Positions 9,401 to 41,896 of a stretch of DNA of 64,000 nucleotides are shown here, in pieces. The notes beneath the pieces were generated by a model that did no database searches, was not told the origin of the DNA, and was given only the letters and a program-made list of their open reading frames with translations. The translations under genes were made by a program, and so were the position numbers. This stretch comes from Tribonema minus (Eukaryota > Sar > Xanthophyceae > Tribonematales > Tribonemataceae), in assembly GCA_017506865.1 (NCBI GenBank), contig JAFCMP010000518.1, forward strand, positions 620,001 to 684,000. Direction: 5' to 3'. Position 1 is the first letter of the stretch. Each line of letters starts with the position of its first letter.

Positions 9401-10650
9401 GTGGCCAAAAGTCAACGTCAGAACAGAGCGCTAACAGAAGGTGTCAGCACCGCGTGCAGGCTCATTTTCTGCAGCAAGCATACATCATGGAAGCCCACAT
9501 GTGGCATAAATGTATGAACTTCCTCTCCACCACTGCCGCAGTGTCTGAGGCAGGTGCCATGCATGTCACGTACACAGTACATATCATCATGGAAGTTGGC
9601 ATGTGCAGAAGTTGTGCGCAAAGCAGAAAAGCGCACCCACTGCAGGCTGGTAGTCAAACAGCAAGACCACAATGACGTTCGGTACTTCAGAGAAGGCGAA
9701 CAGCAAGGCAGATGGCCGCAAGCTGAACCATGCGGCTACGGCTACATGTATATATACAGCTACATGTGTGTTAACACGAAAGGCAGTAGCGATGCGTTGC
9801 ACTTTGGTCTGCTGGACATGTGAAAGTAGCATGTACCAGTGGGCTGGCTAGCTAGCACTATAGCTGCAGGTGTGTGCTGCTTTGCTGATGCAGGCAGATA
9901 AGCAGAGAGTGATAGCTAGCACCACAGCAAAAAAAGTCGCGCATATAGCTTGATCTGTTTGTCGTTCATCACCTGTCTGAATCCGAGAAGCCTCGTGATA
10001 CGGAACCGCCGCATGCCCCTGGCTAGAACCACCACCTGCTCGTCCCCCGCCCTGGCTCCAGATGCAACAGCAGCCACCGTTCCCACGCTGAAAGCTGCAT
10101 GCACTTGAAAGCCCTCCGGTCCCGGGTTGTGAGGGCCGCACACGACCCCAAACAGGCCTGCCGACCTGTCTGAGCTGCTGCCGTTCCGCGGCAGCTCGTG
10201 GTCTGGCTGAGGCTGTTGCGAAAGGCTCCTCTCCGCCAGGGTGATGACGGCCAAGTCTATGTCTCTGTGCAGCCTCAGAGGTAGCGTCTCTCCCGGGAAG
10301 AGCACTACGCCCGGCAGCACCACGATGGGCAGCATGAGCTCTTCGCCATCAAGGAGCTGGTGCTGCTCCGGAGAGGCGGAGGCCGCGGGCTGCACAGTGC
10401 CCAGGTAGGCGTGCATGCGAGCAGAAGAAGAGAGATCTGATCGTGCAGCATTGTCTGTTGACGACACGGCACCAGCGCTGCCGCCAGCTCTGGCGCCTGG
10501 GTGCGCTGAAGTTCGCACTCGTGCCTGCACATCTCGAGGCGTCAGGCTGCTGCGCCTCTCTCCTGCTCTCAGGCGCAGACGCCGCCTGGGACCATTGTGG
10601 CCTCCACCATCAGGGTCACCGCTGCCAGCTCCGCCAGCTGCTGTGTCCAT
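6496..10650 (-). CDS. CRBN: Cereblon, CRL4 E3 ubiquitin-ligase substrate receptor
   Basis: Four exons with GT-AG junctions and matching phases: 9973-10650, 8283-8925, 7322-7538, 6496-6754, coding about 598 residues (human cereblon is 442). Residues about 107-230 begin the LON-like domain (LPIVVLPGVVLFPGETLPL). Exon 2 completes it and carries a long Gln/Ala/Gly-rich linker (8400-8650), which explains the extra length. Exons 3-4 form the CULT domain: zinc cysteines in CAHC (455-458) and CRRC (524-527), and the tri-Trp pocket W513, W519, W533 with the same spacing as human W380, W386, W400. The role known for the family is presenting substrates to CUL4-DDB1. The exon 4 reading ends in TAA at 6496; an alternative donor (GCAG|GTGATG) near 6515 could extend the C-terminus. 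Introns 2 and 3 contain decayed copies of the exon edges. Confidence 0.92.
6908..6953 (-). repeat. Decayed copy of the cereblon exon-4 acceptor region
   Basis: Matches 6717-6765, which spans the acceptor CCCAG and the first codons of exon 4 (FPGFAWTVAYC), with scattered substitutions. It lies in the intron upstream of the true exon and keeps an AG|GTTCC junction. Confidence 0.7.
7564..8010. repeat. Tandem/dispersed repeat block in cereblon intron 2
   Basis: Three to four degenerate copies of a unit with GCGGGCAGCGGGTGAG and TTGAGCACTGATGGAGTGA (about 7570, 7690, 7801, 7945). The copy at 7747-7782 also duplicates the first bases of exon 3 and its acceptor (true edge at 7514-7545). The unit therefore began as a duplication that crossed the splice junction. 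Confidence 0.7.
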
Positions 10651-11430: not shown

Positions 11431-11862
11431 TGTACTTATGATCTTGTATTTATAGCAGCCCCAAGGTGGGCTTGATGCGTTGGATAAGAATGCAAAAAAC
11501 TAAAATCGGACGGGCCCTTAGAGCCCTGCGTTGCAGGCTTGTACTTTTATTATATTCCACTTGTGGCTGTGGAAATGCCATGTTGTAGGTGTGTCGCCTT
11601 GTTCTCACTCTTGGATGTAGCATGCAAAGCCTGCACGCCACACCCCGCCCCCCACATCACCCCCAACAAAGCACCCGCAAGCGACTGTCCCCCACATACT
11701 AGCAGGGATACCAAACAAAGCTACAAGACTCTCCCCCCACAGACAGACCCGTCTTAGGTTTGTACTAGACTCATGGGGGGCAGACACAGCGGCACCCAGT
11801 CTGAGCCACACCTATCGTAGCCGATGTCTCCATCTCTTGAGCGAAAACGCCGGAGGACCGCG
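11431..11862 (-). repeat. Dispersed repeat, left copy, interrupted by a 221-bp insertion
   Basis: Sequences 11431-11544 and 11766-11862 together match 25060-25272 almost base for base, in the same orientation. The copies sit on either side of the LTR retrotransposon but lack its LTR sequence and do not end in TG...CA, so they are not its LTRs. On the minus strand the conserved part reads as a C-terminal peptide (LRRFRSRDGDIGYDRCGSDW...) and its 3' flank. Confidence 0.75.
11545..11765. mobile_element. 221-bp insertion with direct flanking repeat, intron-like ends
   Basis: This block is absent from the second repeat copy (empty site about 25170). It is bordered by TTGTAC at 11539-11544 and again at 11760-11765, consistent with a 6-bp target duplication. 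Read on the minus strand it begins GTACAAACCTAAG and ends AATAAAAG, so it has GT...AG ends. No inverted termini or coding potential. Confidence 0.55.
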
Positions 11863-12061
11863 GACGTGTACTGTAACATGAAATGACATTCAATTTGTCT
11901 ACTAGACTAAGTTACTACTCAGTAGTACTGTGGATCTAAGGAAAAAACACTGAGCCATGATCTAGCCTGAGGGAACTCACAGCCCCAAGCTATTAGTAAG
12001 CCGTAGACTATCATATGCTCCTAGTAGCTTTAAGTTACTGGATAATATTATATTATCAAGC

Positions 12062-12276
12062 TGATGAAACAACTAGCCTCCGTACTACACTTCAGCAAGT
12101 GCAGGGAACAATGCAGAGAAGACACCCACACACAACACAGCTGACCGAACTGTGCTTTGTGTTTTCTGGGGCTGCTGCTCTTGTCTGAGCCGAACAACCA
12201 ACAACGAACAATCTCGTAACTGCCAACCGTAACTGTTACAGTTACAGGTGACACTCCAACATCCAGTGTCACCACA
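12062..12276 (-). repeat. 3' LTR of the methyltransferase retrotransposon
   Basis: 215 bp, starting TGATGAAAC and ending CACCACA on the + strand. Same as 23235-23443 except for two substitutions near 12160-12170 and an extra 6 bp in the GTAACTGTTACAG stretch (about 12230). Confidence 0.93.
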
Positions 12277-12290
12277 GTCACCCCCCCTAG
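12277..12290 (-). other. Polypurine tract next to the 3' LTR
   Basis: On the element strand this reads CTAGGGGGGGTGAC, immediately upstream of the 3' LTR start TGTGG. Position and purine content fit the plus-strand primer site. Confidence 0.65.
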
Positions 12291-12592
12291 ATTGGAAAGG
12301 GTACTGCAAGGGGGACCCACTACACATATGCAACATGACTCGCAAGCCAATGCTACACATTGCAATGACCCCTGTGCACACGCAGTCAATATGCAAAGGC
12401 ATGCCGCACAAGACGCCTCTCACACGCCGGGGTCTCTACCAAGCATGACCGAGTGACTACACATGCAATGATTCCAGCTGGGCTTGTGTGCCAACTAGGA
12501 ACCAAGAACCATTCGATGCATCTGGGCGCGTGTTGTACAAGCTAGGGTCCAGTACTAGGGTCTGATACACCCCTTCAACAATCCAGCACACC

Positions 12593-15500
12593 CTATGAGC
12601 TATCTGTGTACGCCTTTGTCTTCCCCTTTGAGACTACGCCCGTGAGCTCGCCCTCACACCAAGTAAGGTGCTCTTCGCCGCTTGGCTCCGTGAACTTGAA
12701 AACAGCCATAAGCTGCAGTCCGCTGATAGCTGCACTCTGCAACACCGATGTCGCAGGTGGCTGGAGTAACGCCTCCGCCAGGGGCGCAAGCTCATACGAG
12801 CCCACACCGCATTGGGCCAGAACGCCGCCAATACCCCGCGCCTTGACGGCGCGTCGCAGCTGACGCTTGACCACCTGAGTGTTTGAGCCCGCCACTGTAA
12901 TGTCGCGACAGGCAATGGCCTTGTTTAATGTAGACCAGTACTCCTCGAGTATCTGGGGGCACTCATCTAGCTGCTCGGAGTCCTCCCACGAGTCAACTAT
13001 CCCCCCGCTGGTTGCACCCTCCCAGCGTATCAGGTGCTGTAGGCGGTGCCCCCGCCCGCGAGCTGCCGCCGCTACACGATGTTGAAGTATCGCCTCTACA
13101 CCGTGCCGCTGGAAGTTGTGAGCAGCGACGTCGTCAGTAGTGAGCGAGCCAGGTGAATGCCCGCTCCAGTGCTTCGCCAGCAGGTAGCGAGAGAAGCCCG
13201 CAGGCAACGTCTCCGGCTGCTGACGCATGTCGCTAGGGTCGCGACACTTCTTGGTGAGGCGCATTGATATGCGCGTAGGCCGTCCGTTGATGTCCACCAG
13301 AAGACACCCGGCCTGCACACGCTCCCCGCCGCTCTCCGCCGGGCCCGCTAATATTATGCTATAGGGCCTATGCCATCTATCCAAGAACTTCTTGCTGAAG
13401 AGTGTGCGCTTCGCCTTGTTGAACTCCCCCGCCACTGGTGCCGGCTCCGTGTCTGCAGGTGCCGTATGCGTGCGCGGCACATGGTAGTACCACACTCGCT
13501 CACCAGCGCTGAACGACTGACGTAGTCCAAATGCCTCCGCCATCTTGGTGTTCTCGCGGAGCACCTTAGCCCGTCGCAGCGCATGGCGTTGGTTGGCAAT
13601 AATGTTTGCTGAGCGCTGACGCTCAAGGATGTCGAACACTAGCTGTGACACTGAAGGATGTGTGCCAGGCTTGACCAAGGGCTGTTGAAGCTTGCCCAGT
13701 ATGAGGTGTAGTGCGACGCGGGCCTCGCGACCAGTAGCCAGAAGGAAGGGAGTCGCGCCGGTTGCGCGGTTGTAGGCGGTGTTGTGGGCAAACTGATATG
13801 AGGTAGCCAGACTGAGTCCGCCCAATTGTTCTTGGCACTATCAACTAACATGGCGAGCATCTGGGCTAGCTCCTGCATGAAACGCTTACACTTGCCGTTG
13901 CACTCAGGGTGGTATGCGGTAGTGGAAAGCTTCTTGATGCCCATCTGCTTGTAGACAGCTTGAGAAAGCTCTGCCATGAAGAGGCTGCCGCGGTAGCTGA
14001 GGAGCGTAGAAGGGGGACCGTGACGAGTGCTGTGCTGGTTGACTAAAATTTCAGCTGTGCCAGCAGCACTGTAGTCCCCAGGCTTGATGGGATAGCACCA
14101 CACCCAGCCCGAAAACAGGCACATCACCACCAGTATGTACATGAAGCCGCCAGCACTGAGGGGTAGGGGGCCGAAGTGATCAAGCGCTAGGCTATGAAAG
14201 GCGTAGGGGGGCCTCTCGCGCCATAAAGTGGGCCAGCGAGACAACTTGCCGGTGTGCTTGAACGCTTGGCAGGGCCAGCAATGACTAACCCAGTAGTTGA
14301 CGTCAAGGGTCCAAGAGGGCCACCAGCAGTGCGCGCGGGTGCGCTCCAATGTGCGTTTAATGCCCTGGTGGCCTGCCCAAGCTGAGCCGTGCATCGCCTC
14401 AAGGACTTGATCCCGAATGGACCGGGGGATGGCAAGCTGTGGAAGCGGGGATTCGGGGGTGTTGTGCACTAAGAGCTGAGCGTTGCCGCAGACGACAAGG
14501 CTGCACTGCAAAGCCCATTTCTATACCTGGGCTGCAAGCGCCGCGTCTGCTGGCAGTCCTGCTCCAAGCAGCATGTTGCAAATTGGCCCCAGCTGAGCAT
14601 CTGCGCGCTGCTCCCGCTGCCAGTCACCAGGCGTCATGACGCCCAGTTGAGGATGCTCAGCGAAGCACTCCCATGCACCCGCCTCAGCGTCTGCCGCCTC
14701 AGCAAGCGCGGAAATCTGCTCCTCTCCCCCTCCTTGAAGCGCTGCTACCACCTCCGTGCAGATGTTGATGTACTCTGCTGTTGCAAGTGCCTCCAGCCGC
14801 TCCCACTCGTGGGCCTGCAGGCAGTACGCCCCGAGCATCCGCTCGCGCTCGCTCTCCTCTGCAAATTGTGGTGTAGCAGGGACAGGATTGCGGCTTGGGC
14901 CGTCGGTGTTGCCGTGTGACGCGCCCTTCTTGTAGCGGATGGTGATGTTGAAGGCGCTGAGGAACTCGCTCCAGCGCGCGCCGCGCGCGGTGCGCTCGCG
15001 AAGGCTGTCGATGTACTGAAGAGCGCGGTGGTCGGTGTAGAGGACAAACGGCGTCCCCCACAGGATGTGCTTGAACTTCTTGATGCCGAAGACGATGGCG
15101 CCGGCTTCAAGGTCGGTAGTGGACCAGTTGCGCTCATTGGGTAGAGTCGCGCGAGATGTGAAGGCGATCGGTTGCTCTGCGCCGTCGTTGTTGGCCTGCG
15201 AGAGCACTGCGCCAAAGCCCTCCTTGCATGCGTCTGTGGCAAGGACAAAGGGCGCTCGCCGGTGCTGGCGCGCGCGTAGTCGGGGTACTGCATGCAAGTG
15301 CGAAGCGCCAGGGCTTCGTTGACCTCGCGGATGGCTTGCTGTTGAGCACTGCCAACTACGAAGTCCACCCCCTTGGCCATCAGATGGGTGAGCGGTGCTA
15401 CCAGCTTGGCCATGTTCTGAATGAATCGCCGGTAGTAGTTTGCGAGGCCAAGCCACGCACGCAGCTGAGAAATGTTGCAGGGGATGGGCATCTCAAGTAG

Positions 15501-16420
15501 GGCTTGAACTTTGGATGGATCTGGCCTAATGCCATCAACGCCCACAATGTGCCCCAGGAACTTGATGTGCTAACACCCTATGTGCAGCTTGCTGGGGGCT
15601 AGCTTCATCCCATGCTGCTCTAGGCGCTGAAAAAGGGCTTTGAGGTCGTCGAGGTGCTGAGCCGTGGATGTAGAGTGCACAATGACGTCGTCAATGTAGG
15701 GTTGGACGCGCTCTAGGCCGGAAAGCACCATCTGCATGAGGCGTGTAAAGTGCCCTGGCGCCCCCGCCGCCCCCTGTGGGCACCGTAGCCACTCATACAA
15801 GCCGAACGACGTGACCATGGCAGTGAGGGGGATGCTGTCTGCATCTATGGCACTAGTGAAGTACCCATTGGTGATGTCCATGGTGGTGAAGACCTTTGAG
15901 CCCCCCAAACTATTGAGAAGATCCTCTATGTTGGGAATGGGGATCTGGGGGATCTTGGTCTGGGCGTTCAGCTTCTTGTAGTTGACGGTGATGCGGGCAG
16001 TGCCATCAGGCTTGAGCACTGCCACCACTGGGGATGCCCACTCACAGTTGGAAGGGCGGATGATGCCAGCAGCCAGCAGCTTGTCGATTTCAACCTTGAC
16101 CAGAGCCGTCGTTGCAGGAGAGTACCTATATGGACGGTCATGGTGCGGTGTGCTGCCCTCTTTGAGATCAAAGCGGAAGGGCAATGTGGTACAATGCCCT
16201 ATGTCCCACTTGTCTTTTGAGAACATTTTGCTGCTATACTGAGCGAGCAGCAGGCCCAAACACGCCACCTGATCAACGTCCCATCCCTGAAGGTCAACGC
16301 GCACTGCCAGCATATAGTCTGGCAAGTGCTTGCGTGCCTCAGCCAAAGCAGCATTTACCTTAGGGTCCTCGTGAACGTATGACCCCAAACTTAAGCCGCC
16401 GCTGTCGGGAATGTGTACTT
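12593..16420 (-). pseudogene. pol: Retrotransposon pol: RT, RNase H, integrase, chromodomain (broken)
   Basis: Element order runs right to left. RT (15572-16420) has the YIDD catalytic box (about 15681-15699) and FTTMDITNGY motif A. A TAG at 15570-15572 interrupts the same frame before the FLGHIVGVDGI block. A one-base frameshift near 15260 precedes RNase H, which keeps its D-E-D-D residues (LATDACKEGFG, TDLEAGA, YTDHRAL, GNTDGPS). A second in-frame TAG is at 14521-14523. The integrase has the H2C2 zinc motif (14270-14400), but the second catalytic Asp is Tyr (SYRGS, 13993-13995) and the Glu is Lys (KCKRF, 13885-13887). Another frameshift near 13805 leads into the C-terminal part, ending in a chromodomain-like stretch (LIRWEG...DSWEDSEQL, about 12940-13100). 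Two stops, two shifts and two lost catalytic residues make this copy non-functional for autonomous integration, barring assembly error. Confidence 0.9.
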
Positions 16421-16526
16421 TTTATTAATTCTCGCTCAGGGCGCGAAAAAGCCCAGATGATTGGCATCTAGCTGTAAGGAATCTACATGTCGTATGACAG
16501 TCTGAAAGTGTCGCAACGACAACCAC

Positions 16527-19500
16527 TCAAACGCCGCCGCCGCCAAATGGCATCTCGGGGTCCTCCCCTACGTCCTCCTCCATGTGCCCCCCCCCCCTGG
16601 ATTCTGCCATGTGTGTCATGACACGGCCAGAGTACGCCATGTGGAGCGCTGCCGACAGTGCCGAGCGTAAGCGCGCCAGGGCGATGCCCTTGAGAGCTTT
16701 AGGGCGCGCTCCTCCGGGCACTGACATCCTGCTGGCATACTCCGTCGCCACAGCCTCCAGCAGCTTCCGCCCCTGCTCCCCGATGCTGCCAAATGACCCT
16801 ATTGCCAATGTGGCAAGTTTGTAGCAATTCTGATCATAATGACCAGAATAGTGGGTAGTCTTGGCGGCCTCTTGGTCGCGGCAGCATCGCTCGGGGTCTG
16901 CTGCAGTCTTCGCCGCCCGCGACGCCACCTGTGCCTCGAAGCAGGTAACGTCCACCATGAGCGGTAGGTGGCGTGTCGGGTCGTCGTAGCCGGTCACCGG
17001 GAAGGCGTCGGCAGGCAGCACGATGTCCATCCTGCGACTCCCCGGCGGCCCGGCGGACCCCAGAAACGGCGTGTAGTCCTCGTCCACCAGTCCCGTTTTG
17101 AGGTATTGCCGCAGGAGGCGCTGCGTGGCCCTCTTGACGCTTTTGTGGACAATGGTGTCGTGCGCCTTGACGCGTGGCGCTTGACACAGCCGTGCATGCA
17201 GGGTGCCGCCCGGCGACTTCCCGCACAGCTTGCAGCCTGCCGTCTGCTCCTCTACTCCGATGGCGCGTTTGACGGCCAGCTGCCAGGATAGGCCATCGAA
17301 CGAAGCCGTTGTGGAGTACATGGGCTCGTTGAGGAATGCCATGCCGATCGAGTGCATGTGGCGCTGCGACCGGAATCGAGCAAGTGCTTGCGTGCGTTGC
17401 GTGCCCTGCGGCAGCTGTTGCAGGTCCGCCTCCACCTTATCTGCAAGCTCGGTAGCGACGGCATCTGCAAGCGCACTCTGATTGGGGCGCTTCAGGCTAC
17501 ACTGCAACTGCAGAGCACTGGCGTCAAGTACGCAAGCAGCATCCGCACCAGTGCCACCACCTGCTGTCGGCCGCAGCGGCGGCTGCTGCGTAGGTGGTTG
17601 CTGCTGCAGTGGCGTTAGCGCTGGTGGCAGTATATGTTCCAGCTTGTCACCTGGAATGTGTACTTTTGCGCTCCCACTAGGCTCAAAGTCAACGGCCTCA
17701 CCGAGGTGTTGCTGCAGCGCCTCTCGCACGGCTGCTGCGCCCTTCGCAATAGTCGCGTCAGCGCTGCTGCCGGCGTCACCCTCCGGCTCCGCCCCGCAGC
17801 GCAAAATGTCAGTGCGCAGGTCCAGCACAAAGACGTGCTCCTCCCTCCCAGCGCGCGCTGGCGCCGCCGCGGCGCCTGCCGCATGCGCGCGCTGCGCCGC
17901 TGTATCGCTTGTCGCTGATGCTGCCGCTGCAGCATTGCTCCCACAAGCCTTTGCCGCATGTGCAGCGCCATCAGGCGCCGCTGCTGCTGTAGAGCGCTGC
18001 TGCGCCGCCGCCGCCCGGGCGGTGCTCGCCCGCTCCACTGCGGTGGCCATGCGCACTGCGACTGGTTCGGCGCCAGCATGCGCCGCTGCTGTCGCAGTGC
18101 TCCGTTGCGTTGCGACTCCGTGCGCGGCGTTGGTCGGCGCCGCCGCAGAATCGGCGCATGCCGCGGCAGGCGCGACGCCCGTAGGCGCCGCTGCCGCCGC
18201 AGCGCTCCGCTGCGCGTCCGCCGCTTGGGCGGCGCTCGCTGGCGCCACTGAAGAGACTGCGCGCGCTGCAGCTAGCGCGGCGCCCACAGGCGCTGCTGCT
18301 GCTGCTGCTGCAGCACTCCGTGGTGTCACTGGTGCGCGTGCGGCGCGCGCCGACGCATATGCTACACCAGCAGCACGCGCCGCGATTGGCGCGGCGCCCT
18401 CGGGCGCCGCTGCCGTCGCAGCGCTCCGTCGCGCGGCTGTTGCCTGCGTGACCTCCTTATGTGCCGCCCTTGAGGCAGCTTGGGCCGCAGCGCGCACGGT
18501 GCAAGCAGGCACCGATGCCGCCGCAGCGTCCCGGCGTGCAGCCGCTGCCTGCGCAGCAGCAGCAGTGTCGCCGTGCACGGGGCCAGAAGACGTCGCTTTT
18601 GTCACAGAGCTCCGCGGCGCGGCCGCTGACTGCGCGGCACCCTGCGGCGCCGCGGCAGCAGCCCGCGGCGCACTGCGCGCAACGCCTGTATATGCTGCCG
18701 CCGCAGCAGCGCTCGCCAGCGCCGCCGCAGCAGCGCTCGCCGGCGCCGCCGCAGCAGCGCTCGCCGGCGCCGCCGCAGCAGCGCTCGCCGGCGCCGCCGT
18801 CGCAGCGCTCGCCGGCGCCGCCGCAGCTGCAGCAGCCTGTGCTTGAGGGGCGCGCGCTCCGCGCGCCACACGTCTGCGCGCCTCCTGTGCAAGAGCCACT
18901 CCATACTTGCCGAAAGCGTGGTGGGTGCCAGTATTGATGAGGGTTTGTACTGGATCCGGCAGCGACGATGCCGCCGCCTGGTCCACGACATCATGCAGCA
19001 ATCCGCTCTGCAGCAGGATCCCCCCCAGGAGGTCCGCCATTTGCGGGCACACCGCGTTCGCCAGCATCTGTGAATAGGCAGTGACGTCAGGCGGCTCTGG
19101 AGCATCCCACTTGTACGAGGTGGGGAAGCTGTGAATGGCGCGCAGCGCATGCCAGGGTAGGTACTCCGCGCGCGCGTGCTCAGCCGGGTCCTGCGTAGCA
19201 TCCTTTGGCCGCACGTCGATGTTAGGCTGCAGGTTTCGGCGGTATGTGCAGCCGCGAATGGTCGGCGCCGGGCCGTCCATAGAGTGCACCTGTTTGGCCC
19301 TAGTGTTGCGGCCAACTGTTGCAAAGCAGTCGCGCCGCTGACCGTTGGAGTCAAGCACGTCGCTGGTGACGTTGCGCACGGTGTCGTACTCAGCGTGCTG
19401 CTTGGCATATGTCAGCAACTGCACTGCCTGGTGCATAGACGCCTGCATGCGCGCGATGTCGTGCTCGCCAATGCCAGGTCGCCCCAGCAGCCAACACACA

Positions 19501-22193
19501 CGCGTGCGCGTCTGAGCAATGCGGCTGTCTGCACCAGTGACCACTAGCTCCTGCTGCACCGTGAAGCCGCCGTGTGCTGCGCAGCGCAGAAACTCCGCCA
19601 GCTCCGGTGCCGCCCTAAGGCCCGGAACATTTTCAATCTGCAGTAGTCGGCAGGTCTCTGCGCCCATTGCTACCTCCAGCATGTAGTAGAGGTGCTCCAT
19701 GCCCAAAGCCGTCTCCCCCTCCCCTGCTGTTGAGAACTTCTGGCAGGGGGGGGGCCCTAATAAGACCTCGGCGCGCAGCCGCCCCATATCTGCAATGAGC
19801 TCTGCGCGCGTAGATGGGTCCGCCATATCCCGGCGGCGAACGTCCGTATGAGGGTGATTCTCCTTGTATATCCGAAGAGCGCGCTCCTCAGAGTCAACGG
19901 CTAGCTTGACGTTCAAGTAGGGCTGAAGCCCCTCCGCCAGGCCGCCAGCGCCGCAGTAAACCTCTACCGCCGTGGCGCGCGCGTTCGGGTCCCGTTCCAG
20001 CACGCTGTCGGGTACCTCACGTAGCGGCCGCGCCTTGCCCAGCACGGTGCCACGTGGCAGCGAGAGGGGCTCCCCCCGCTGCTCGAGCTTGACCGGCTTG
20101 GCATGCAGCCCAACCGTCAGCTCGCGTGTGTACATGTGATTCAGGAATTCCTCCGCAATTGTCACATGTGCTGTGTCCAGTTCTCCCGGGCAGGAGACGA
20201 CAGGTGTGATCCCATCAGACTCCATCACTTGAACCCAAACTGTCTGCACACCATGTTCAAGGCCATCTAGCTCTGTTGCGACGCGCACTACTGCCACCCA
20301 ATCGCGTTCCTCCGCGTAGGTGTACACTGGGACTTTGGGACTGAAGCTGGGGGTGGGTTCTGCTGATGGCTCGCCATACACGTATGTGGGCCCACTGCCA
20401 CTATGACTTGCATGCCACTTATGTCTGCTGATGTGGTCACGCCCAATGATGATGTCGTGTGGCAGGTGTGGTACAATGAGCGCCAGCTGAGTGAAAGCTA
20501 CCCCGTCTGGGCCGTCAGTCTCAAAGTGAAGCGCTACAGCGTGGGTGACGAGCTGTGGCTTCTTGGATGTGTCAACACCGGCTACTGCCCTAGGTTTGCT
20601 GAGTTGGTGAACATCCCGCTGCTCTATGGCTCCTGATGCAACTAATTTGCGGAATGCTTGCTCCCTGATGGCAGTAACTGAGGCCCCAGTGTCCCAGAGA
20701 ATGTCCCTAGAAAACTTGCAACGTAGTGCACGCGCAGAGCGTAAACGGGCCTTGAACCTAGAGTGCACGTCAGTATAGAGTTTGCCCCTTACGTTGGGCA
20801 TGCTTGCCTGCTGTGGTACAGGTAGTACTGCGGCCTCCATCGCTGCCACCTCAGCGTAGTATGCCAAGACCGTCCCGTCATCAGCTCCGTCCTCCGGCGC
20901 CCACATTGCCAGTATCTCGAAGCAGCGCTCAACAGTGCGCGCCTCCTCTGCCATGGCTATCTCCACCGCTGTCAGGCCCGCCTCGCCGTCCAGCATCTCG
21001 TCGATGGCGCCAAGGGTCTCTGCCGCCGGCGCCCAGCTACGCATCCGCCGCTGCGGCTCAGGTTGAGCCGTGCCATCCACCTTGAAAGCATGAAGCCGCT
21101 GCAGATATATCAGCCTGCGCTGCTGCTCCGCTGCAAAGGCGGCGTCGTCGGCGGCGTGCGCCGCCGCAGCAGCGTCGCCGCCGCTGAGTGGTGCTGAAGG
21201 CGATCTTGAGGTTTGTGTGGGAGTCGCAGTTGATGTCGGAGTTGAGGTTGGTGTAGAACATGGAGTTGTCGTGTGTCGCGCCGCAGCAGCTGCTGCAGTC
21301 GCCAAATGTGGCGCCGTTGCCGGCGCAGGAGTTGCAGTTGTAGCCGTTGCCGGCGCAGAAGTTGCAGTTGTAGCCGTGCTGCAGCTACTCACTGGTGGTG
21401 CTGGTGGTATCCTCACCCCCCCTTGCAATGGCGCGTGCGCGCCAACGCCATGACCCGCTGCAGCGTGCACGGGCCTCCGTGCTGGAGTACCAAGCTCCTG
21501 AATAGGGCTGAGGGGTGCCACCGGCCGTCGAGAGCGCTGCTCCTGCTGCAGGCGCGACGCGCGCGCGCGCCGTAGCCGTGCGCCGCTGGATTTACGTCGC
21601 CCCAAAATAGGCCATCGCTGTAGAGTCGTAGTTGTTGTTGCCGGCGACTGTGCAGCACCACCAGGCGCCGCCAACGCCGCCGGTCTCCATCGCGCCGTTG
21701 CTGCTTGAGCAGCGTTCGTGGGCGCCTCCTCAGCAGCAGCGCTCAACGGAAGCTGCGCCGCGCCTGCTGGTGCTGCTGCCGTCGTAACGTTCTGCTGCGC
21801 GGCTGCTGCATGGGCGGCGCTCGCCGCTGCTGCAGAAGCCGCATGCACTGCAGACAGCGCAGCGCCCAAAAGTGCCGCTGCTGCCGCAGCACTCCGTGGT
21901 GCTGCTGGTGCGGGCGCGGCGCGTCGCGGCGCCGCAACACCAGAAGCACGCGCCGCGACTGGCGCGGCGCCCGAGGGCGCTGCTGCCATCGCAACGCTCC
22001 GCTGCGCGTCATCCTCTTGAGCGGCGCTCGCCGGCGCCACTGAAGAAGCTGCGGGCGCCGCAGCTGGCGCCGCATGTCCCCCACGCCCTCTGCAGCGTTG
22101 TTGTGCCGCCGCAGCAGATCCTCTTGCCGCGCGATCACCTCCTCCATACGCTTTTGCCCCTGCGCAACCTCCGCTGCCACTCCTGACAGGCGC
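16527..22193 (-). CDS. Retrotransposon polyprotein: aspartic protease, C5-cytosine DNA methyltransferase, zinc-knuckle/endonuclease-like domain
   Basis: One open frame of over 1,800 codons. Residues here count from a GTG at 22040; the frame is open from 22193 and is the gag frame after one TGA. Residues 1-330 are Ala/Pro/Thr-rich. Protease: ILWDTGAS (Asp450) with a downstream IIIGRDHI flap. Methyltransferase, residues about 690-1010: motif I YCGAGGL (about 693), catalytic GPPPCQ (Cys766), motif VI ENV (803), motif VIII QTRTRV (843), a motif IX-like LRAIHSFP block, motif X ANAVCPQMA (about 993). All key residues are present, so activity is plausible; the target would be cytosine C5 in DNA. An Ala-rich repeat linker follows (17900-18840). 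The C-terminus (16530-17500) has CKLC...H...C (Cys1603, Cys1606) and RRMDI, VDVTC and AKTTHY...Y blocks, as in endonuclease-like tails of other retroelements. No CCHC gag knuckle was found. Expression could be by stop readthrough or frameshift. Confidence 0.9.
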   Translation of the reverse strand, partial: APVRSGSGGCAGAKAYGGGDRAARGSAAAAQQRCRGRGGHAAPAAAPAASSVAPASAAQEDDAQRSVAMAAAPSGAAPVAARASGVAAPRRAAPAPAAPRSAAAAAALLGAALSAVHAASAAAASAAHAAAAQQNVTTAAAPAGAAQLPLSAAAEEAPTNAAQAATARWRPAALAAPGGAAQSPATTTTTLQRWPILGRRKSSGARLRRARASRLQQEQRSRRPVAPLSPIQELGTPARRPVHAAAGHGVGAHAPLQGGVRIPPAPPVSSCSTATTATSAPATATTATPAPATAPHLATAAAAAARHTTTPCSTPTSTPTSTATPTQTSRSPSAPLSGGDAAAAAHAADDAAFAAEQQRRLIYLQRLHAFKVDGTAQPEPQRRMRSWAPAAETLGAIDEMLDGEAGLTAVEIAMAEEARTVERCFEILAMWAPEDGADDGTVLAYYAEVAAMEAAVLPVPQQASMPNVRGKLYTDVHSRFKARLRSARALRCKFSRDILWDTGASVTAIREQAFRKLVASGAIEQRDVHQLSKPRAVAGVDTSKKPQLVTHAVALHFETDGPDGVAFTQLALIVPHLPHDIIIGRDHISRHKWHASHSGSGPTYVYGEPSAEPTPSFSPKVPVYTYAEERDWVAVVRVATELDGLEHGVQTVWVQVMESDGITPVVSCPGELDTAHVTIAEEFLNHMYTRELTVGLHAKPVKLEQRGEPLSLPRGTVLGKARPLREVPDSVLERDPNARATAVEVYCGAGGLAEGLQPYLNVKLAVDSEERALRIYKENHPHTDVRRRDMADPSTRAELIADMGRLRAEVLLGPPPCQKFSTAGEGETALGMEHLYYMLEVAMGAETCRLLQIENVPGLRAAPELAEFLRCAAHGGFTVQQELVVTGADSRIAQTRTRVCWLLGRPGIGEHDIARMQASMHQAVQLLTYAKQHAEYDTVRNVTSDVLDSNGQRRDCFATVGRNTRAKQVHSMDGPAPTIRGCTYRRNLQPNIDVRPKDATQDPAEHARAEYLPWHALRAIHSFPTSYKWDAPEPPDVTAYSQMLANAVCPQMADLLGGILLQSGLLHDVVDQAAASSLPDPVQTLINTGTHHAFGKYGVALAQEARRRVARGARAPQAQAAAAAAAPASAATAAPASAAAAAPASAAAAAPASAAAAALASAAAAAAYTGVARSAPRAAAAAPQGAAQSAAAPRSSVTKATSSGPVHGDTAAAAQAAAARRDAAAASVPACTVRAAAQAASRAAHKEVTQATAARRSAATAAAPEGAAPIAARAAGVAYASARAARAPVTPRSAAAAAAAAPVGAALAAARAVSSVAPASAAQAADAQRSAAAAAAPTGVAPAAACADSAAAPTNAAHGVATQRSTATAAAHAGAEPVAVRMATAVERASTARAAAAQQRSTAAAAPDGAAHAAKACGSNAAAAASATSDTAAQRAHAAGAAAAPARAGREEHVFVLDLRTDILRCGAEPEGDAGSSADATIAKGAAAVREALQQHLGEAVDFEPSGSAKVHIPGDKLEHILPPALTPLQQQPPTQQPPLRPTAGGGTGADAACVLDASALQLQCSLKRPNQSALADAVATELADKVEADLQQLPQGTQRTQALARFRSQRHMHSIGMAFLNEPMYSTTASFDGLSWQLAVKRAIGVEEQTAGCKLCGKSPGGTLHARLCQAPRVKAHDTIVHKSVKRATQRLLRQYLKTGLVDEDYTPFLGSAGPPGSRRMDIVLPADAFPVTGYDDPTRHLPLMVDVTCFEAQVASRAAKTAADPERCCRDQEAAKTTHYSGHYDQNCYKLATLAIGSFGSIGEQGRKLLEAVATEYASRMSVPGGARPKALKGIALARLRSALSAALHMAYSGRVMTHMAESRGGGHMEEDVGEDPEMPFGGGGV
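18690..18835 (-). repeat. 24-bp tandem repeat coding Ala/Pro/Ser
   Basis: About five copies of a GCTCGCCGGCGCCGCCGCAG unit (24-bp period) inside the large retrotransposon ORF. They code a PASAAAAA-type linker between the methyltransferase and C-terminal domains. The unit stays in frame in every copy. Confidence 0.8.
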
Positions 22194-23174
22194 TCACCCA
22201 TGTGGATCAGCCGCCGCAGTCGCGACCCTCTCACCGACCTCCGCGATGCTCTCCGCGATGGCCGCCATGTCTCCTTGTATGACAGGAATCACATCCTGTA
22301 CCAGCGCGTCCATGTCGCGCTGTGATGCTGCACCGCCTGCGATGGTGGGGCCACTCCCCAGCTGCGCCAGTGCACTAGCGTGCTCCGCCAGCTGCATCTG
22401 GTGCCTGCGCAGCGATGTGTTGATACCGGGCAAGTTGTGCGTAATTACCATGCACAGATCCTGCCCCATGAGAGAGGTGGTGTTGGCCACCCCTGCGAGC
22501 CCCCCTTTGAGGCTGGTTACCTCGGACTGCAGGTACTGCAACTCCATGTTGAGCTGCAAGTCCAAGTTTTCCTCGGCAGTCATATGCCCCACCGTTGCAG
22601 CTTCCTTTCGCTGCTCCTCCTGCTCCATTTCACGCTCCCTAGGAGAGGGCACCGCGTCCATTGCGGGCCCAGATCCCATTGGGCGGATGACCAGGTGCTT
22701 CGGGTTGTCGGCGAGGGCGCCAAGAAGTCCTGTGGGTCCAGAAGGCTTGCCGCCAGACTCGTGCCCCCAGTCGGCAGCAGCACTGTCTGCCCACTTTACC
22801 AAAGCATGGTCAGCGACAGATACTGGACCTGAAGTGCTGTCGCTGCTCCCGATGGTGGACAAGTGGTGCGGAGCCGCCGCAGCAGCGTCAGTTGCAGGCC
22901 CTGGCACAGGCTCTGTTCTCACTGCGCTGCCGCTTGCTAGCTCGTTCGCACTCTGGGCTGGTACGACTGCTCCACCAGCAGCGCCTCCAGCCTTGATCGC
23001 AACAGCATCTGCCAGTGATGCTGCGCGTCCCACGGACAAACTCCGTGACCTCTGCACACGCCTCGGCTCCGGGTTGTGGCCATAGGGCAGCTTGGCCAAC
23101 ACAACTCCAGAGCTCCGCGTTGCGCGAGAGTTTACTCCTGATGCAGCACGCGCCGAGTCCTGCTCGTGCGCCAT
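22194..23174 (-). CDS. gag: Retrotransposon gag-like protein
   Basis: 326 codons from an ATG in good context (ACCATGG) shortly inside the 5' LTR and PBS. The N-terminal third is Ala/Ser/Pro-rich. From about residue 180 it is highly charged and helical (REREMEQEEQRKEAA, then LDLQLNMELQYLQSEV), a probable coiled-coil, which fits a Gag that assembles particles. No CCHC knuckle is visible. The frame ends at TGA (22194-22196), and the next large ORF is in the same frame. The coiled-coil pattern also continues past the stop in the +1 frame (GERLSGVAAEVAQGQ, RMEEVIARQEDLLRRH, to about 22075). So either two compensating indels or a programmed shift or readthrough joins gag to the next ORF. Family assignment rests on position and composition. 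Confidence 0.65.
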   Translation of the reverse strand: MAHEQDSARAASGVNSRATRSSGVVLAKLPYGHNPEPRRVQRSRSLSVGRAASLADAVAIKAGGAAGGAVVPAQSANELASGSAVRTEPVPGPATDAAAAAPHHLSTIGSSDSTSGPVSVADHALVKWADSAAADWGHESGGKPSGPTGLLGALADNPKHLVIRPMGSGPAMDAVPSPREREMEQEEQRKEAATVGHMTAEENLDLQLNMELQYLQSEVTSLKGGLAGVANTTSLMGQDLCMVITHNLPGINTSLRRHQMQLAEHASALAQLGSGPTIAGGAASQRDMDALVQDVIPVIQGDMAAIAESIAEVGERVATAAADPHG

Positions 23175-23214
23175 GGTACCGCTATCGCCTGGTGGATCTG
23201 GTCAAAGATCGTCT

Positions 23215-23232
23215 TTTCGTACTCGGGAACCA
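23215..23232 (-). other. Primer-binding-site-like sequence
   Basis: On the element strand, two bases after the 5' LTR, the sequence reads TGGTTCCCGAGTACG. TGG pairs with the tRNA CCA end. The matching tRNA is not identified. Confidence 0.5.
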
Positions 23233-23234
23233 AC

Positions 23235-23443
23235 TGATGAAACAACTAGCCTCCGTACTACACTTCAGCAAGTGCAGGGAACAATGCAGAGAAGACACCC
23301 ACACACAACACAGCTGACCGAACTGTGCTATGTGTATTCTGGGGCTGCTGCTCTTGTCTGAGCCGAACAACCAACAACGAACAATCTCGTAACTGCCAAC
23401 CGTAACAGTTGCAGGTGACACTCCAACATCCAGTGTCACCACA
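23235..23443 (-). repeat. 5' LTR of the methyltransferase retrotransposon
   Basis: 209 bp, TG...CA, direct repeat of 12062-12276. It should hold the element's promoter; no TATA element could be assigned confidently. Followed on the + strand by AAGC, matching the other flank. Confidence 0.93.
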
Positions 23444-25059
23444 AAGCCTGGCTCCGACTCGGAGGCATCCCATGGCATATATGATATTATAATATCCTAA
23501 CAGACACTTCTTTATATATAGCACTGCATGATATGCTTATGCCATAGTATGGATGGATGCGAATTGATACTATTATAGATATATCGCATTGTCGGCAACA
23601 GCATTCAAGTTGTCGGACATGCCGTTGGGAACTTTGATGACTCAGAATGTGTCATCTGATTCATGTATCACTGATGGCATACGTTTCCAACATGATGATG
23701 ACCATGATGACATTTGTTATCATGAGGGACACACATTAAATTCGAGATGTCATCAGCATGACTATTTCAAAGTCTGGAAACAGGCAAACTTCTTTGTGAG
23801 AGTCCCATGGGTCACTTGGAGGCTCCGCCAAAATTCAACGTTACTTACTACGGCGTACCTACTAGTAGTAAGCGCAACATACTGCAGTGCCGCACCAACT
23901 GCCAATTTAAACTGAACTTCGCGTAGACTGCACTGGCATTTAGAACTACTTAGTTTAGTAATTCGCGCAACCTTGAAGTTGTAAACTTTTGAAACTTGAA
24001 GTTCACATTTCGCTTGCGCATGCGATGGACACATGCATACTTATTAACTTGAAGAGAGAGAGGTGAAAGTGGGTGACGTTTTCCGCCCTCCTTAGTAAGG
24101 GCCGCCACCTGGCGGTGGCATATGTGCCACATTTTGCCCTAGACTAAGTGTCTGTAGTGGATTCAAAGTTTGTAACAACTTGACACTTGATAACTGAGAA
24201 ATAAAGATGAACCATATTAATCGATTAATGCTGTTCAAAAGACTCTCGGATGTCACTTTCATTTGGCAAGTCAGACTCAATTGATATATATTTTCATATG
24301 ATGATTGTTACGGCACGCGCCATTAGCTGGGGCCTTTCTTCAGGACTGGTCTTTGCTTTGGGACGGTTCTTAGGGCCACCTGGGGCTGTTATCATGGTAG
24401 TTCTAGAAGTATGTGAGCTCTGTAGGCCTATGACGCTGGGGCACTTGCACCTAGCAGGTCAGTGACTCTAGCACTTGCCAAGTTCCACCTAGGTTCTCCT
24501 GGTTGTTGTTGGTGAGGGGGGTGATCTGTCCCCCTTTTCAAGGAGTTCTGGCTTTGCCAAATGACTGTGGAGCCTCACTCTCTCTACCTGGGACATTGGC
24601 AACAGGGACTGATACATACACAGGTGAATTAGCTACTCACTGGGTGTTGTGTTTGCCTGCCTGTTCAAGTTGATGTGTGCTTGTTAGAGATTGTCTGGAG
24701 GAGTACCATGGTGTCCCTGGTGTAGATATGCTTTGGTGATCTTGGTATCTTAGGATAGCTGCTTGCTTGCCTCCCTGGTTTGTGGCACATGAGCTTGCTG
24801 CCCCTGTCCTAACATGATGTGCCAGGCGGCCTTCGGAGCTTGCCGCGGCATGCCGCGTCACGAATGAGGCAGTCGTCTTGGTTATCATAAAGCAACGTCA
24901 CGGTTTTGGGCCGCTGATGCGACTGAGGATTTACCATGATGTTGACTCATTTCATTTGATTGTCTTCTATTAACAAGTACTAAAAAAAGCGACTTATTAA
25001 CTTGAAGTCAAAGCGGATTTGGATGTGATCGTCTGCACACCACTTCTTCAGAATAGCGT
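23444..25059. other. Intergenic, AT-rich in part
   Basis: No supported gene. The first 150 bases are AT-rich with many TATATA words. A GC hairpin-like block (GCCGCCACCTGGCGGTGGC) sits near 24100. Small ORFs have no domain or splice support. Confidence 0.4.
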
Positions 25060-25272
25060 TGTACTTATGATCTTGTATTTATAGCAGCCCCAAGGTGGGC
25101 TTGATGCGTTCGATAAGATTGCAAAAAACTAAAATCGGACGGGCCCTTAGAGCCCTGCGTTGCAGGCTTGTAATAGACTCATGGGGGGCAGACACAGCGG
25201 CACCCAGTCTGAGCCACACCTATCGTAGCCGATGTCTCCATCTCTTGAGCGAAAACGCCGGAGGACCGCGGT
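25060..25272 (-). repeat. Dispersed repeat, right (uninterrupted) copy
   Basis: Direct-orientation match of 11431-11544 plus 11766-11862 with only a few substitutions. It provides the empty site for the 221-bp insertion in the left copy. Confidence 0.75.
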
Positions 25273-26048: not shown

Positions 26049-29000
26049 ATGTCTATCAAGGTGGGCGTCGTCGGAGCTGGTTCTGTGGGATCCACACTTG
26101 GCGGTATGGCGCTGAAAGGCGGAAACTCTGTGAAGTGAGTGTGCACCACAGGAGATCCTCAAGATTGAAGATACACCGACGGCCTGATTGTTGTCGTGCG
26201 GCCTGAAGCTACGGTCTGCCAGGCTGTTGCCCGCGCACTTAGAGTTACGCAAAAATCTATCAATCCTTATGCCAGGCCCTTGTGATGAACGAAATGCCAT
26301 CACGGCTTATTTTTTGGCGGTGCAGTTGGATCCTCAATGCCTGCCGCTTGCGTGTCGTCTCGCACAGGTACGCTTCAAGGGATCCCTCTAGCGACAAAAT
26401 CAAGGAGCTTCTCAGCAGCCAAGCTGGCACCAGCGCTGATACCACCCCCAACGTTGTCAGCTGGGCAGACGTGATCATACTTGCGACGCCAGGTGCATTA
26501 CCAGTCACAGCTACATTACGAGCTTGCACGCTTTCAAACATGGCAGCCGTACAACGTTTGCAGCTGCCCTACCACGACAGCAATCAAGTGCTACGTCGTG
26601 AACTTCATGTTTGAGGCTTTGCAGGAAGTACAGCAGTGTTTGAGTGAGCTGCGGCCCTCATACTGTCCTGCAGTGCCTGACCAACTATTATCACTGTGAA
26701 CTCTGCAAGTCATACAGAAGTCGCTGTTGAGCCATAAGTTTTGTGGCAAGTATCAGTCTGCTGCCAGTGCTGTTGGTTACAGTGCATGCTGCCATCGCGG
26801 CAGCCCCGGGGTCGGCGCCAACTACCAGACTGATTGTCACAGAGTGATGCAGACAAGCCTTTGTCGCGACCACTGCCTAGTATGATCACATTGTGTAGTG
26901 ACACACGACGAGTGTACTATATCAGTACACTTAGTATGTCATCTCTTAATCACCTGGTACTGCAACATCGGCACATGCGCCAAGAACTTCAACGCAGTGT
27001 TTGCTGCAACAGTGACACGTGCTCCACACCAATATGGCCATTTGTCCATCACTTGGTCCGGCTGTCATGGTCTAAGGAGCCTATATATGTAGGCGAACGA
27101 CAGCATTGCGGAGACTGACACAGGTGCCGTGACCAACCTCAATGCAACGCATGTGTACTGAAATGGACAGACTGTCCAGGACAGTCCATACTTTCGAAGT
27201 GTATTCCAATGATTGCTGTACATTGTATGCATGCATGACTGTGCTGGTCTCAGGAGCATATGAGGACGAAGGCATTACGAAGTTGGCAGAGTCTTTGGGC
27301 GATGTAACTGGCAAGGTCATCATTGATGTCACCAACCCGCTGTCGGCATTCCCTGGCCTGGAGGTTCGCTGGAAGCAGGGCACTTCAGGCGAGTGTAATG
27401 AACGACCTTCCGTGTGGGCTCAAGCATGCCGAGTGGTGGGCTTCACAGTGGAATTGACGCATGCAGTGCTGCATTGCTTGCCTTCGGTGTCCACTGTGCA
27501 ACTGACGCATCTGATGCAGCTTTTGCAGCCTTTCCGCGCAATGGATATACAAGTGGTGCGTGCATGCATGTGGTGACACATTTCTGTCCAATGACATGCC
27601 TCATGGCTCAGCTTCCATGCTGACATGGCCATTACTCATGAAAAAAAGTGTTGGTATTACGGTGCTGCTACTCCGGAATGAGCTGCCGCCGCCCTGACAA
27701 GTACAATGGCCATTCTTGTGCTCAGCACAACTTTAAACAATAGCAATCAGGAGGTGCAGTTACAGCGCAAGCCCACCAGCCGTGTTCCGCCAATAACGCC
27801 GCCGGCCATGCGCCTGATCAGCACGCAGTAACAGGCACCGGATTGTGTGGTCGCATGGGTGATGTCATTCGATGCACCGTGACAGAAACCAGGTTTCCGG
27901 TTTCGCACGAGTCGTGCCGTTCATTGCGCTGTCACATGCAGATGCTGCAGCCGTGAGTAGGTTTGTCGGGGTACCTAGTGCGCGCTCTGCTCGTGCTAAG
28001 CTGCAAATGCTTATGTGACTGGGGCCAGAGTGCAGGTCGATTGCTGGGTGAGGTCAGTCAGTTGACGGGGTAATTGCGCAACAGTCATCTGACAGCCACT
28101 GCTTCAATGATTGAGGGAGGGTGTTAAGGAAGATGGCAGTTTGATGCTCATTGCCGGTACTGGCTGACGGCTGTTACAGTCGCCGGTGGACGGACTTCAA
28201 GACATTCACTTCCAGCTGCACATGAATGATGTGGCCTTCTGCTGCTGCAATCGCCTTTCAATGTTCACCTTAGATGGTACAGCGACAGGCTGGAGAGCAC
28301 CAGCTGCACAGGTCGCCTCGTATACTGACAAAGTAGTTACGTTATGGCGTTGTTGTAGCAGCTGCTTCACCTATTGCGTTAACCTGCTGTGACAGTCACT
28401 GCTATACTGGCCTGCCAATTCCAATGGAGCCTTCTGGGCCTTAGGCCTTAGTAACATGGCTTGTGTCAGACGGTATTCCGCAAGCACGCGCCTTCACCTT
28501 TGTGTTAGCGCGCGTTGACAATGTCTTGATTGTTGAGGGTAGGGGTTAGGGTTAGGTCTGGGTCCGCCGCTGCTGTTCATGTACATGATTCAACGCGCTC
28601 ATCACCGCTCCAGCTAATTCCATATTCTGATCACAGCATATATGAGCATACTGTAGCAGCTTCTCGTCTGCCTTGTCTGACTGAGCGTGACATCTCCAAA
28701 TGCTACATCCTGCACAGGCGCTGAGGTGCTGCAGGCTGCCTTGCCCAACGCCATAATCTACAAGGCCTTCAACACGCTGGGAGTTGAGAACATGTCCCAT
28801 GGCGACGGCTCTGGCTTTGCTGGCTGGACTGGGGGTCAGCTGTCAATGATGTATGCCGGTGGCCCTGAGAAGAATGATCAGGTGGCAACGCTCATCAAGG
28901 CCATGGGCTGGATACCTGCCTACGTGGGCCCCATCAGATACGCGCGGAACCTGGAGGTGAGCCCTGAAGCCATGAAGTACAGCCACGGCAACCTTATCTC

Positions 29001-41598: not shown

Positions 41599-41896
41599 CT
41601 TGGAATGACATTGCCAGGTGGCATCTGCCTCCCCTTGCATCATCCCCCATCTGTCCCCCCCTTCCCTTGGAATCCTCCACGTGATTCGTATCTCAGAGAA
41701 ACGCCATGTTGTTTACAAATAATTGCAATCGCATTCATTCATTCGTATTTGAAAAGGAGATTTGAAGCGGTTCAACTTCAACTGAAAGTCGGCTTCAACT
41801 TCAATAGCGCCTGCAACTTGAACTTGCAGTGTGAAAAAAACGAGAGACTTCGAAGAGTGGGCCACGCCACACTTTTTTTCTGTAGCACCTATCATC

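Follow-up and report, generated by a model that had tools for sequence, protein, structure and literature searches.

Ty3/gypsy retrotransposons of Tribonema minus encode a C5-cytosine DNA methyltransferase of probable bacterial origin

We analyzed a 64,000 nt stretch of Tribonema minus DNA (GenBank assembly GCA_017506865.1, contig JAFCMP010000518.1, positions 620,001 to 684,000; hereafter the window, whose own numbering is used below) and found a defective Ty3/gypsy long terminal repeat (LTR) retrotransposon, designated family A (12062..23443, 11,382 bp), that carries a C5-cytosine DNA methyltransferase (MTase) domain (18990..19973). All features of the element lie on the minus strand. On balance, we favor the view that this is a dead copy of a family whose Pol protein includes a bacterial-type C5-MTase, is made by readthrough of a UAG codon and methylates complementary DNA (cDNA) in the particle, and that such enzymes were acquired by Ty3 elements on two or more occasions or were transferred between them.

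An element-borne domain with the features of C5-MTases

The domain lies in an open frame of 1,888 codons (16527..22193) that comprises a protease, the MTase and, by way of a nested insertion, a foreign tail. Residues 742-1055 of this frame match PF00145 (E 1.3e-15, 58.1 bits, cut-off 22), while a match to the TIGR00675 dcm model stayed below its cut-off (49 vs 100.65 bits). Among the C5-MTase motifs, residues 745-752 are motif I, motif IV contains Cys817 (codon at 19743-19745), and ENV (853-858), QTRTR (893-899) and residues 1044-1052 are motifs VI, VIII and X, with an IX-like sequence at 973-981. Cys817, counted from the start of the frame, is the Cys766 of a preliminary description of this DNA that counted from a GTG. 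An AlphaFold2 model of 18984-20165, built with 24 relatives, had a mean pLDDT of 85.9, and all 50 PDB matches listed in a fold search with this model belong to the C5-MTase family, among them the tRNA enzyme DNMT2 and a C5-carboxymethyltransferase.

Upstream of the MTase, a retroviral-type aspartic protease region (20415..20714) is indicated by the motif DTGASV (residues 501-506). Pfam supports it weakly, the best match (E 0.029) falling short of the cut-off, but it is 51% identical to its family B counterpart, which itself fell narrowly under the Pfam cut-off (26.0 vs 28.2 bits). An Ala-rich repetitive linker (17847..18842) extends from the MTase toward the reverse transcriptase (RT). The preliminary description had reported a protease followed by a full set of C5-MTase motifs in one open frame, and this was borne out, with motif IX being only IX-like. 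It had also named two ways in which it could be wrong: that the segment was another Rossmann methyltransferase, which is contradicted by the PF00145 and fold matches, or that it was a host gene fragment present in no other element copy, which is contradicted by the occurrence of the domain in many copies.

The motif IV Cys, ENV and RxR are invariant in all eight aligned families (A-F). Across 25 family-A copies compared, the catalytic Cys is always kept; motif IV reads LGGPPCQ in 20 copies, LGAPPCQ in three, LGGPLCQ in one and LGPPPCQ in one, the window copy. One family-A copy (L031) is without the Cys of motif I (VYCGAGG). A search of the protein database with the whole-frame region found nothing at E 1e-3, and a scan of viral contigs found no relative.

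Complete copies place the MTase in pol beyond a gag UAG codon

A complete family-A copy on contig C551 (read as L053, L041 and L042) has identical LTRs (208/208) and the target site duplication (TSD) GTAA; given the identical LTRs, it moved recently. Its 5´ part consists of an LTR, an N-terminal gag frame and an overlapping frame, ending in TAG, with a capsid-like sequence and a CCHC knuckle. The latter two were recognized by eye, and a Pfam scan of this gag found no gag family match. After the TAG, a single pol frame of 2,936 codons (2,844 inside L041) joins protease, MTase, Ala-rich linker, RT, RNase H, integrase and chromodomain ahead of the 3´ LTR, the parts from RT to chromodomain being assigned by likeness to the window copy. 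Since MTase and RT share the pol frame, which follows the gag UAG, both are expected in the less abundant Gag-Pol product. The suggestion of the preliminary description that the enzyme travels with the structural proteins rather than with RT therefore does not fit the complete copies.

The gag stop is TAG in all three copies read, two from family A (L041 and L043) and one from family B (L044), in a conserved context (ACCTAGGGGTGCGAC), and a 9-bp stem begins 8 nt past it. Between A and B, the stem differs at two base pairs, both compensatory (C-G to A-U and A-U to C-G); the comparison comprises two distinct sequences, since both A copies are identical there. Compared with shuffled sequences, the family A fold had a z of -2.85, with none of 200 shuffles as good; for family B the result was less clear, with a z of -1.75 and an equally good fold in 10 of 200 shuffles. 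Gammaretroviral gag-pol readthrough uses a UAG codon, an 8-nt spacer and a stem or pseudoknot. The UAG, the 8-nt spacer and the stem with A/B compensatory changes resemble that system; here, readthrough is predicted from the sequences of two families, and the structure seen is a stem.

The position of the MTase within pol varies. It is 3´ of the protease in families A and B, and ahead of the protease in D, D2, D3, E and F, such that the order given in the preliminary description, protease then MTase, applies to the first group and is reversed in the second. In a Pfam scan that covered the proteases of families C, D, D2, D3, E and G, support was just over cut-off in D and below it in D2, D3 and E, and families C and G gave no protease match. 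Family C seems to have the order protease-MTase-RT as in A and B, and we infer this order for G as well. For one further sequence, L006 (D4), the reading was confined to the surroundings of the MTase. A EukProt protein, P0127, whose name points to a Trinity transcript as its source, shares 97.4% identity over 504 residues with the family C pol in L045 and is without the MTase region; given this likeness, transcription of a family C element is probable in the same or a very close species.

MTase-bearing elements form many families in the genome

The preliminary description had proposed a genome-wide search for related copies. We searched 158 Mb in 554 contigs; places were counted by eye, and all counts are lower bounds. 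The searches gave well over 100 near-full MTase places of the retroelement kind, in families A-G. A 109-row search gave at least 27 near-full-length family-A places at 95-100% identity, including that of the window, at least 15 near-full family-B places at 62-64% plus one at 51%, and at least four near-full family-C places at 34-36%, the remaining rows being partial. A 130-row search gave at least 42 near-full family-D places at 87-100%, at least 45 of D2 type at 48-52% and at least 14 of D3 type at 38-40%. The D, D2 and D3 types were set by identity alone, and a few rows contain a stop. Further families came from 123 scored rows among 378 candidates in a PF00145 search of the genome; one member each of E and F was read (L054 and L055). 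No Ty3 family without an MTase domain was found, with one to few members looked at per family.

By a count made by eye, 14 of the 27 family-A places begin no more than 15 kb from the start of a contig, and the copy number may therefore be inflated by contig redundancy or repeat-ended contigs. Copies also lie inside large contigs (C551, 576,709 bases; C35, 1,537,782 bases).

Other MTase sequences were noted in the same searches. One D3-type domain (G000:C311:3916-4833) is part of an open frame of unusual length, 6,208 codons. Three free-standing MTase frames of 367-390 codons (L001 and L002 on contig C223, L003 on C181) are unlike the retroelement MTases; L001 and L002, which fall near M.HhaI in trees, look virus-like and are perhaps remnants of an endogenous large DNA virus. 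The only cellular-type MTase gene read in the genome is a DNMT2-like host gene, apparently split by introns (L004, contig C523).

The MTase domain is under purifying selection between families

Across the 25 family-A copies (L009-L033), all 394 MTase codons are open and stop-free; L035, one of two near-full family-A places outside this comparison, contains a TGA and a TAG. We calculated dN/dS by the Nei-Gojobori method with our own script. For the MTase, the comparison of two B subfamilies gave 0.09-0.11 at a dS of about 0.4, and that of two D subfamilies 0.13-0.15 at a dS of about 0.46. E versus F gave 0.19 and A versus B 0.20-0.28, with dS in the latter (1.1-1.5) near saturation; many D versus D2 comparisons were saturated. 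Thus, the MTase domain is under purifying selection between families and subfamilies, with dN/dS of about 0.09-0.28. For A versus B, RT gave 0.09 and the protease 0.24 (90 codons, dS 1.9), and constraint on the MTase is about equal to that on the protease and weaker than that on RT.

Family G has a degenerate active site

RT relatives of family A at 37-39% identity were considered as possible MTase-free sisters, but this was ruled out for the three that were read (L058-L060, family G), which all carry degenerate MTase domains. The domain still matches PF00145 in all three, and its alignment to the profile of families A-F has an E of 2.1e-24. In G1 and G3, motif IV reads TRC in place of PC, and G2, with frames of up to 3,455 codons, is without 25 residues there. 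In a search with the 324-residue G2 domain, 11 rows spanned the whole query at 98-100% identity and 16 further rows spanned residues 38-324, also at 98-100%, one of them with a TAG. The genomic span is exactly three bases per residue in all 27 places, and the catalytic loop is therefore present in none. The dN/dS of the G domain is 0.14-0.22, at a dS (about 1.5) near saturation. A structure model of the G domain was of low confidence (pLDDT 41.8), and its C5-MTase fold matches are supportive only.

In the 16 shorter G2 rows, the first 44 residues match in another frame, such that 16 of the 27 places have in common a change of frame at about residue 38-44 (for example, G000:C8:369423-370283). 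A form of G2 that is apparently non-autonomous or frameshifting has thus spread.

The enzyme groups with bacterial C5-MTases

The nearest database proteins, four JGI/ENA entries (P0002-P0005), are 51-68% identical to family A. P0002 lies on a contig of 39,907 bases and P0004 on one of 26,582 bases; the RT proteins P0123 and P0146 are listed with identical contig sizes; the MTases and RTs are thus very probably on the same contigs, which indicates that related elements exist elsewhere. The next-nearest proteins are bacterial-type enzymes, such as P0006 of Rhizobium sp. Leaf383.

In a 40-row tree without family G, nine retroelement MTases of this genome and envP0004 form a clade (96/90), which lies within a set of bacterial and metagenomic enzymes with a support of 94/89, just under the star of the tree tool. 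This set leaves out human DNMT1, DNMT2 and DNMT3A, M.HhaI, the DNMT2 of the genome (L004) and the virus-like MTases L001 and L002. A 43-row tree that includes family G has a strong branch (95/98) separating retroelement MTases, bacterial enzymes and DNMT2 from DNMT1, DNMT3A and M.HhaI. DNMT5, CMT and DRM rows were left out of both trees, and DNMT3A is on a long branch. Since the trees part the retroelement MTases from DNMT1 and DNMT3A, DNMT1 and DNMT3 are unlikely sources, and the domain appears to derive from a bacterial (or phage) C5-MTase. A phylogeny had been called for by the preliminary description; the trees here place the domain with bacterial enzymes and away from human DNMT1 and DNMT3A, with DNMT2 on its side of the strong branch when family G is included. 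The bacterial proteins P0006 and P0007-P0014, which form one group with the retroelement MTases in the tree without G (94/89), have a similar motif IV (for example, GGPPCQDYS) but are free-standing and only 21-27% identical to the window domain.

To assess the number of entries, we compared RT sequences with those of Ty3 elements from animals, plants and other contigs. Thirty-one rows were tested after five were dropped from a 36-row tree (P0128 and P0132, under half filled; P0137 and P0177, long branches; P0189, short). A single clade of all MTase-bearing elements was rejected (p-AU 5.8e-5), where the clade tested also held three close relatives whose MTase content is only partly known. Groupings of A-C with D-F (p-AU 0.0013) and of A-C with G (p-AU 0.005) were likewise rejected, and G grouped with D-F at 92/88. 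Because the RT trees reject one clade and the position of the MTase in pol differs among families, the enzyme would have come into Ty3 elements at least twice, or recombination would have carried it from one Ty3 lineage to another, unrelated one.

The window copy is defective and carries a nested insertion

The window copy is bounded by LTRs of the form TG...CA, the 5´ LTR at 23235..23443 (209 bp) and the 3´ LTR at 12062..12276 (215 bp), which are 95.5% identical over 220 columns with three mismatches and seven gap positions, and is flanked by the 4-bp TSD GCTT (23444-23447 and 12058-12061). Pfam matches were obtained for RT (RVT_1, 15570..16421, E 6.6e-23), RNase H (RT_RNaseH, 14521..15492, E 5.4e-34, in a frame shifted relative to RT), integrase (13639..14520; H2C2 E 3.4e-18, rve below cut-off) and a C-terminal integrase region with a chromodomain (12593..13825, E 7.8e-06). 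The LTRs, TSD and these matches uphold the earlier assignment to Ty3/gypsy. The order of the pol domains, PR-RT-RNase H-integrase, is as in Ty3/gypsy, with weak support for the protease, and the RT relatives in databases have RT, RNase H and integrase in the Ty3 arrangement, some being named Ty3. We also read a putative primer-binding site directly inside the 5´ LTR (TGGTTCCCGAGTACGAAAAG, 23213..23232) and a putative polypurine tract 4 bases ahead of the 3´ LTR (AGGGGGGG, 12281..12288). A tRNA scan of the whole window found none, and an Rfam scan of the window gave no match.

Several defects mark this copy as dead, to judge by its sequence. An N-terminal gag frame of 326 aa with a TGA end (22194..23174) is present, and 22062-23443 is 98% identical to the C551 copy at the DNA level. 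Relative to that copy, about 2.7 kb comprising the gag capsid, the CCHC knuckle and the start of pol is missing, with an approximate deletion junction at 22061..22062, in repetitive Ala-rich sequence, located by BLAST of the window against L041 and L053. The gag reported in the preliminary description is therefore present only as its N-terminal part. The pol region is broken over several frames, with a TAG within the RT match.

The frame that carries the MTase ends in a nested insertion of the 3´ end of another retroelement (16423..17652, 1,230 bp), bounded by a 15-bp TSD (AAAAGTACACATTCC; 17653-17667 and 16408-16422) and absent from L041 and L043. The extra domain that had been noted ahead of RT is thus foreign and not part of the MTase element. 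It is the C-terminus of a separate abundant element with frames of up to 1,791 codons, for which 150 of 150 scored rows, among 2,196 first-look candidates, were 99-100% identical. We also considered a restriction-modification pair with the insert tail as the nuclease partner, which was ruled out by the TSD, the absence from L041 and L043 and the separate element. A Pfam scan of the insert domain gave no match; its C-terminal pattern (CxxC..H..C and R-MD..DVT) resembles that of restriction-like endonucleases of LINEs.

Elsewhere in the window, a repeat of 98% identity lies on both outer flanks of the element (25060-25271 vs 11431-11543 and 11756-11863), interrupted on the 3´ side by about 210 bp. 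Dispersed direct repeats are found at 28720-28958 and 32983-33221 (93%) and at 27234-27389 and 32020-32176 (82%). Exon-like frames of ordinary host genes surround the element (2351-2950, 9916-10650, 41831-42694 and 55808-56980), with matches to fn3, LON substrate-binding, E1 dehydrogenase and LMF1 C-terminal domains. In the genome at large, two rbcL-like fragments look to be of red type, and the light-harvesting family has 92 matches, one such protein being nearest to fucoxanthin proteins and another to chains named LHCI, ACPI and CAC; these sequences suggest an alga, probably with a secondary plastid of red type. A scan for the cryptophyte marker PF02972 gave no hit, and neither did its controls.

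Discussion

We propose that ribosomes would occasionally pass the gag UAG, producing the MTase as one polypeptide with protease, RT, RNase H and integrase, and that the MTase would be packaged in the particle along with RT as part of Gag-Pol. After reverse transcription, the enzyme could methylate the double-stranded cDNA in the particle before integration, which would shield the cDNA from, or match it to, a host response to unmethylated DNA. Judged from sequence, cDNA marking cannot be told from action on host DNA or RNA.

A number of observations count against this proposal or temper its support. Within families and subfamilies, dN/dS ranges from 0.19 to 1.68, based on few changes. The family G domain is constrained without the catalytic Cys, which speaks for an additional role other than catalysis, in G at least, and catalysis may not be the only function under selection. 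The CpG observed/expected ratio (O/E) is 0.90 in the element vs 0.68 outside it, as expected if the element is young or unmethylated, and other CpG evidence is weak: C/T differences at CG exceeded those at CC in seven of eight overlapping family-A pairs, often narrowly. The hairpin was seen in three copies with two distinct sequences. In the 43-row tree, a group of all retroelement MTases has a support of only 84/82, DNMT2 is on their side of the 95/98 branch with the order within that side not settled, and unions of A-C with bacterial enzymes alone (p-AU 0.41), with G (p-AU 0.34) or with D-F (p-AU 0.27) were not rejected. The DNMT references were picked with the retroelement MTase profile and thus resemble these MTases by choice. 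For RT, the groups tested were named after the 36-row tree had been seen, the branches are long, and the references were found with the family A RT, a sampling bias.

A broader version of the proposal, which we consider plausible but hold with less confidence, is that bacterial C5-MTases were taken up independently at least twice at different places in pol and became standard in many Ty3 families, with the G proteins as dead but constrained subunits, counterparts of DNMT3L, that have a second, non-catalytic function. A domain retained solely to bind nucleic acids or to serve structurally in Pol or in the particle, with catalysis ancestral and dispensable, is rather unlikely as a general explanation. 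The TRC in G1 and G3, the loss of 25 residues at 27 G2 places, the long frames, the PF00145 matches in all three G members and the low dN/dS near saturation fit such a role, but a structural role alone would not demand the Cys, ENV and RxR that are invariant in eight of eight families, nor the Cys kept in all 25 A copies.

The enzyme could instead have the host genome as its target, acting in trans to silence the element itself or its rivals as a form of self-restraint. The many copies and the CpG-poor genome (O/E 0.64 and TG/CA 1.53 in the 30-64 kb part of the window) fit a methylated genome, but other dinucleotides are skewed as well (GC 1.32, TA 0.67), and CpG depletion may stem from host enzymes; we consider this reading, in which the enzyme would act in the nucleus, improbable. 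A little less probable still is methylation of RNA, either genomic RNA or the tRNA primer, in the manner of DNMT2. The four best PDB matches of the retroelement MTase profile are DNMT2 proteins, in keeping with the side of the 95/98 branch on which DNMT2 falls, yet DNMT2 forms its own branch (100/100) in both trees and is excluded from the union of retroelement and bacterial MTases (94/89) in the tree without G. We give hardly any credence to the view that the domain is a host gene fragment picked up by the element, or an artefact of assembly or contamination, with no function there. The clustering of family-A places near contig starts would be compatible with some inflation, but copies lie inside C551 and C35, relatives are present on other contigs in public databases, and between-family dN/dS is well under 1; the dN/dS values and the relatives speak strongly against such a reading.

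Retrotransposon-borne C5-MTases are already known, including non-Dnmt3 types in LINEs (PMC5890265, PMC12344493). The KnitGypsy-Dnmt3 element of Klebsormidium nitens, an LTR/Gypsy element, is described there as carrying a Dnmt3-type MTase in Pol with Ka/Ks < 0.2, with a DIRS-like repeat structure according to a figure legend; its enzyme had no activity in yeast, a result called inconclusive by the authors (PMC5890265). On that account, it shares with the elements here a C5-MTase in the Pol of an LTR/Gypsy element and purifying selection on the domain, but differs in that the window family has plain LTRs, motif IV is of PPC type in A, B, C, D and D2, and many families are present here. In trees that include no KnitGypsy sequence, the retroelement MTases fall away from human DNMT3A, which sits on a long branch, and are thus unlike the Dnmt3 type. 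Since the MTase type is unlike that published for Klebsormidium, these elements probably represent a further acquisition, as the preliminary description had suggested. For the dinoflagellate SymbioDIRS-Dnmt3 enzymes, de Mendoza 2018 reported de novo CG methylation in yeast and proposed cDNA methylation (PMC5890265). The SymbioLINE enzymes were placed among "orphan", lineage-specific DNMTs in a 2025 paper (PMC12344493), and a non-Dnmt3 MTase in a retrotransposon is thus not new as such. Both dinoflagellate groups resemble the present elements as high-copy, retrotransposon-borne C5-MTases, but have DIRS and LINE backbones where those here are Ty3/gypsy. Methylase-bearing Ty3/Gypsy and DIRS elements are also mentioned for several algal groups in another paper (PMC6338049). 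As far as our searches show, in a literature outside which subscription papers and most preprints fell, what is new is the occurrence in Ty3/gypsy elements of C5-MTases that are bacterial-type and not Dnmt3-type, in several families, at more than one position in pol and in at least two RT lineages, together with a lineage whose active site is deleted.

Hosts silence retrotransposons by cytosine methylation, yet large retrotransposon families in this genome encode a methylating enzyme of their own. With normal, altered and deleted active sites and different pol positions in one genome, why retrotransposons keep an MTase becomes testable by comparison. The trees also indicate bacteria, and not host genes alone, as a source of MTases for retrotransposons.

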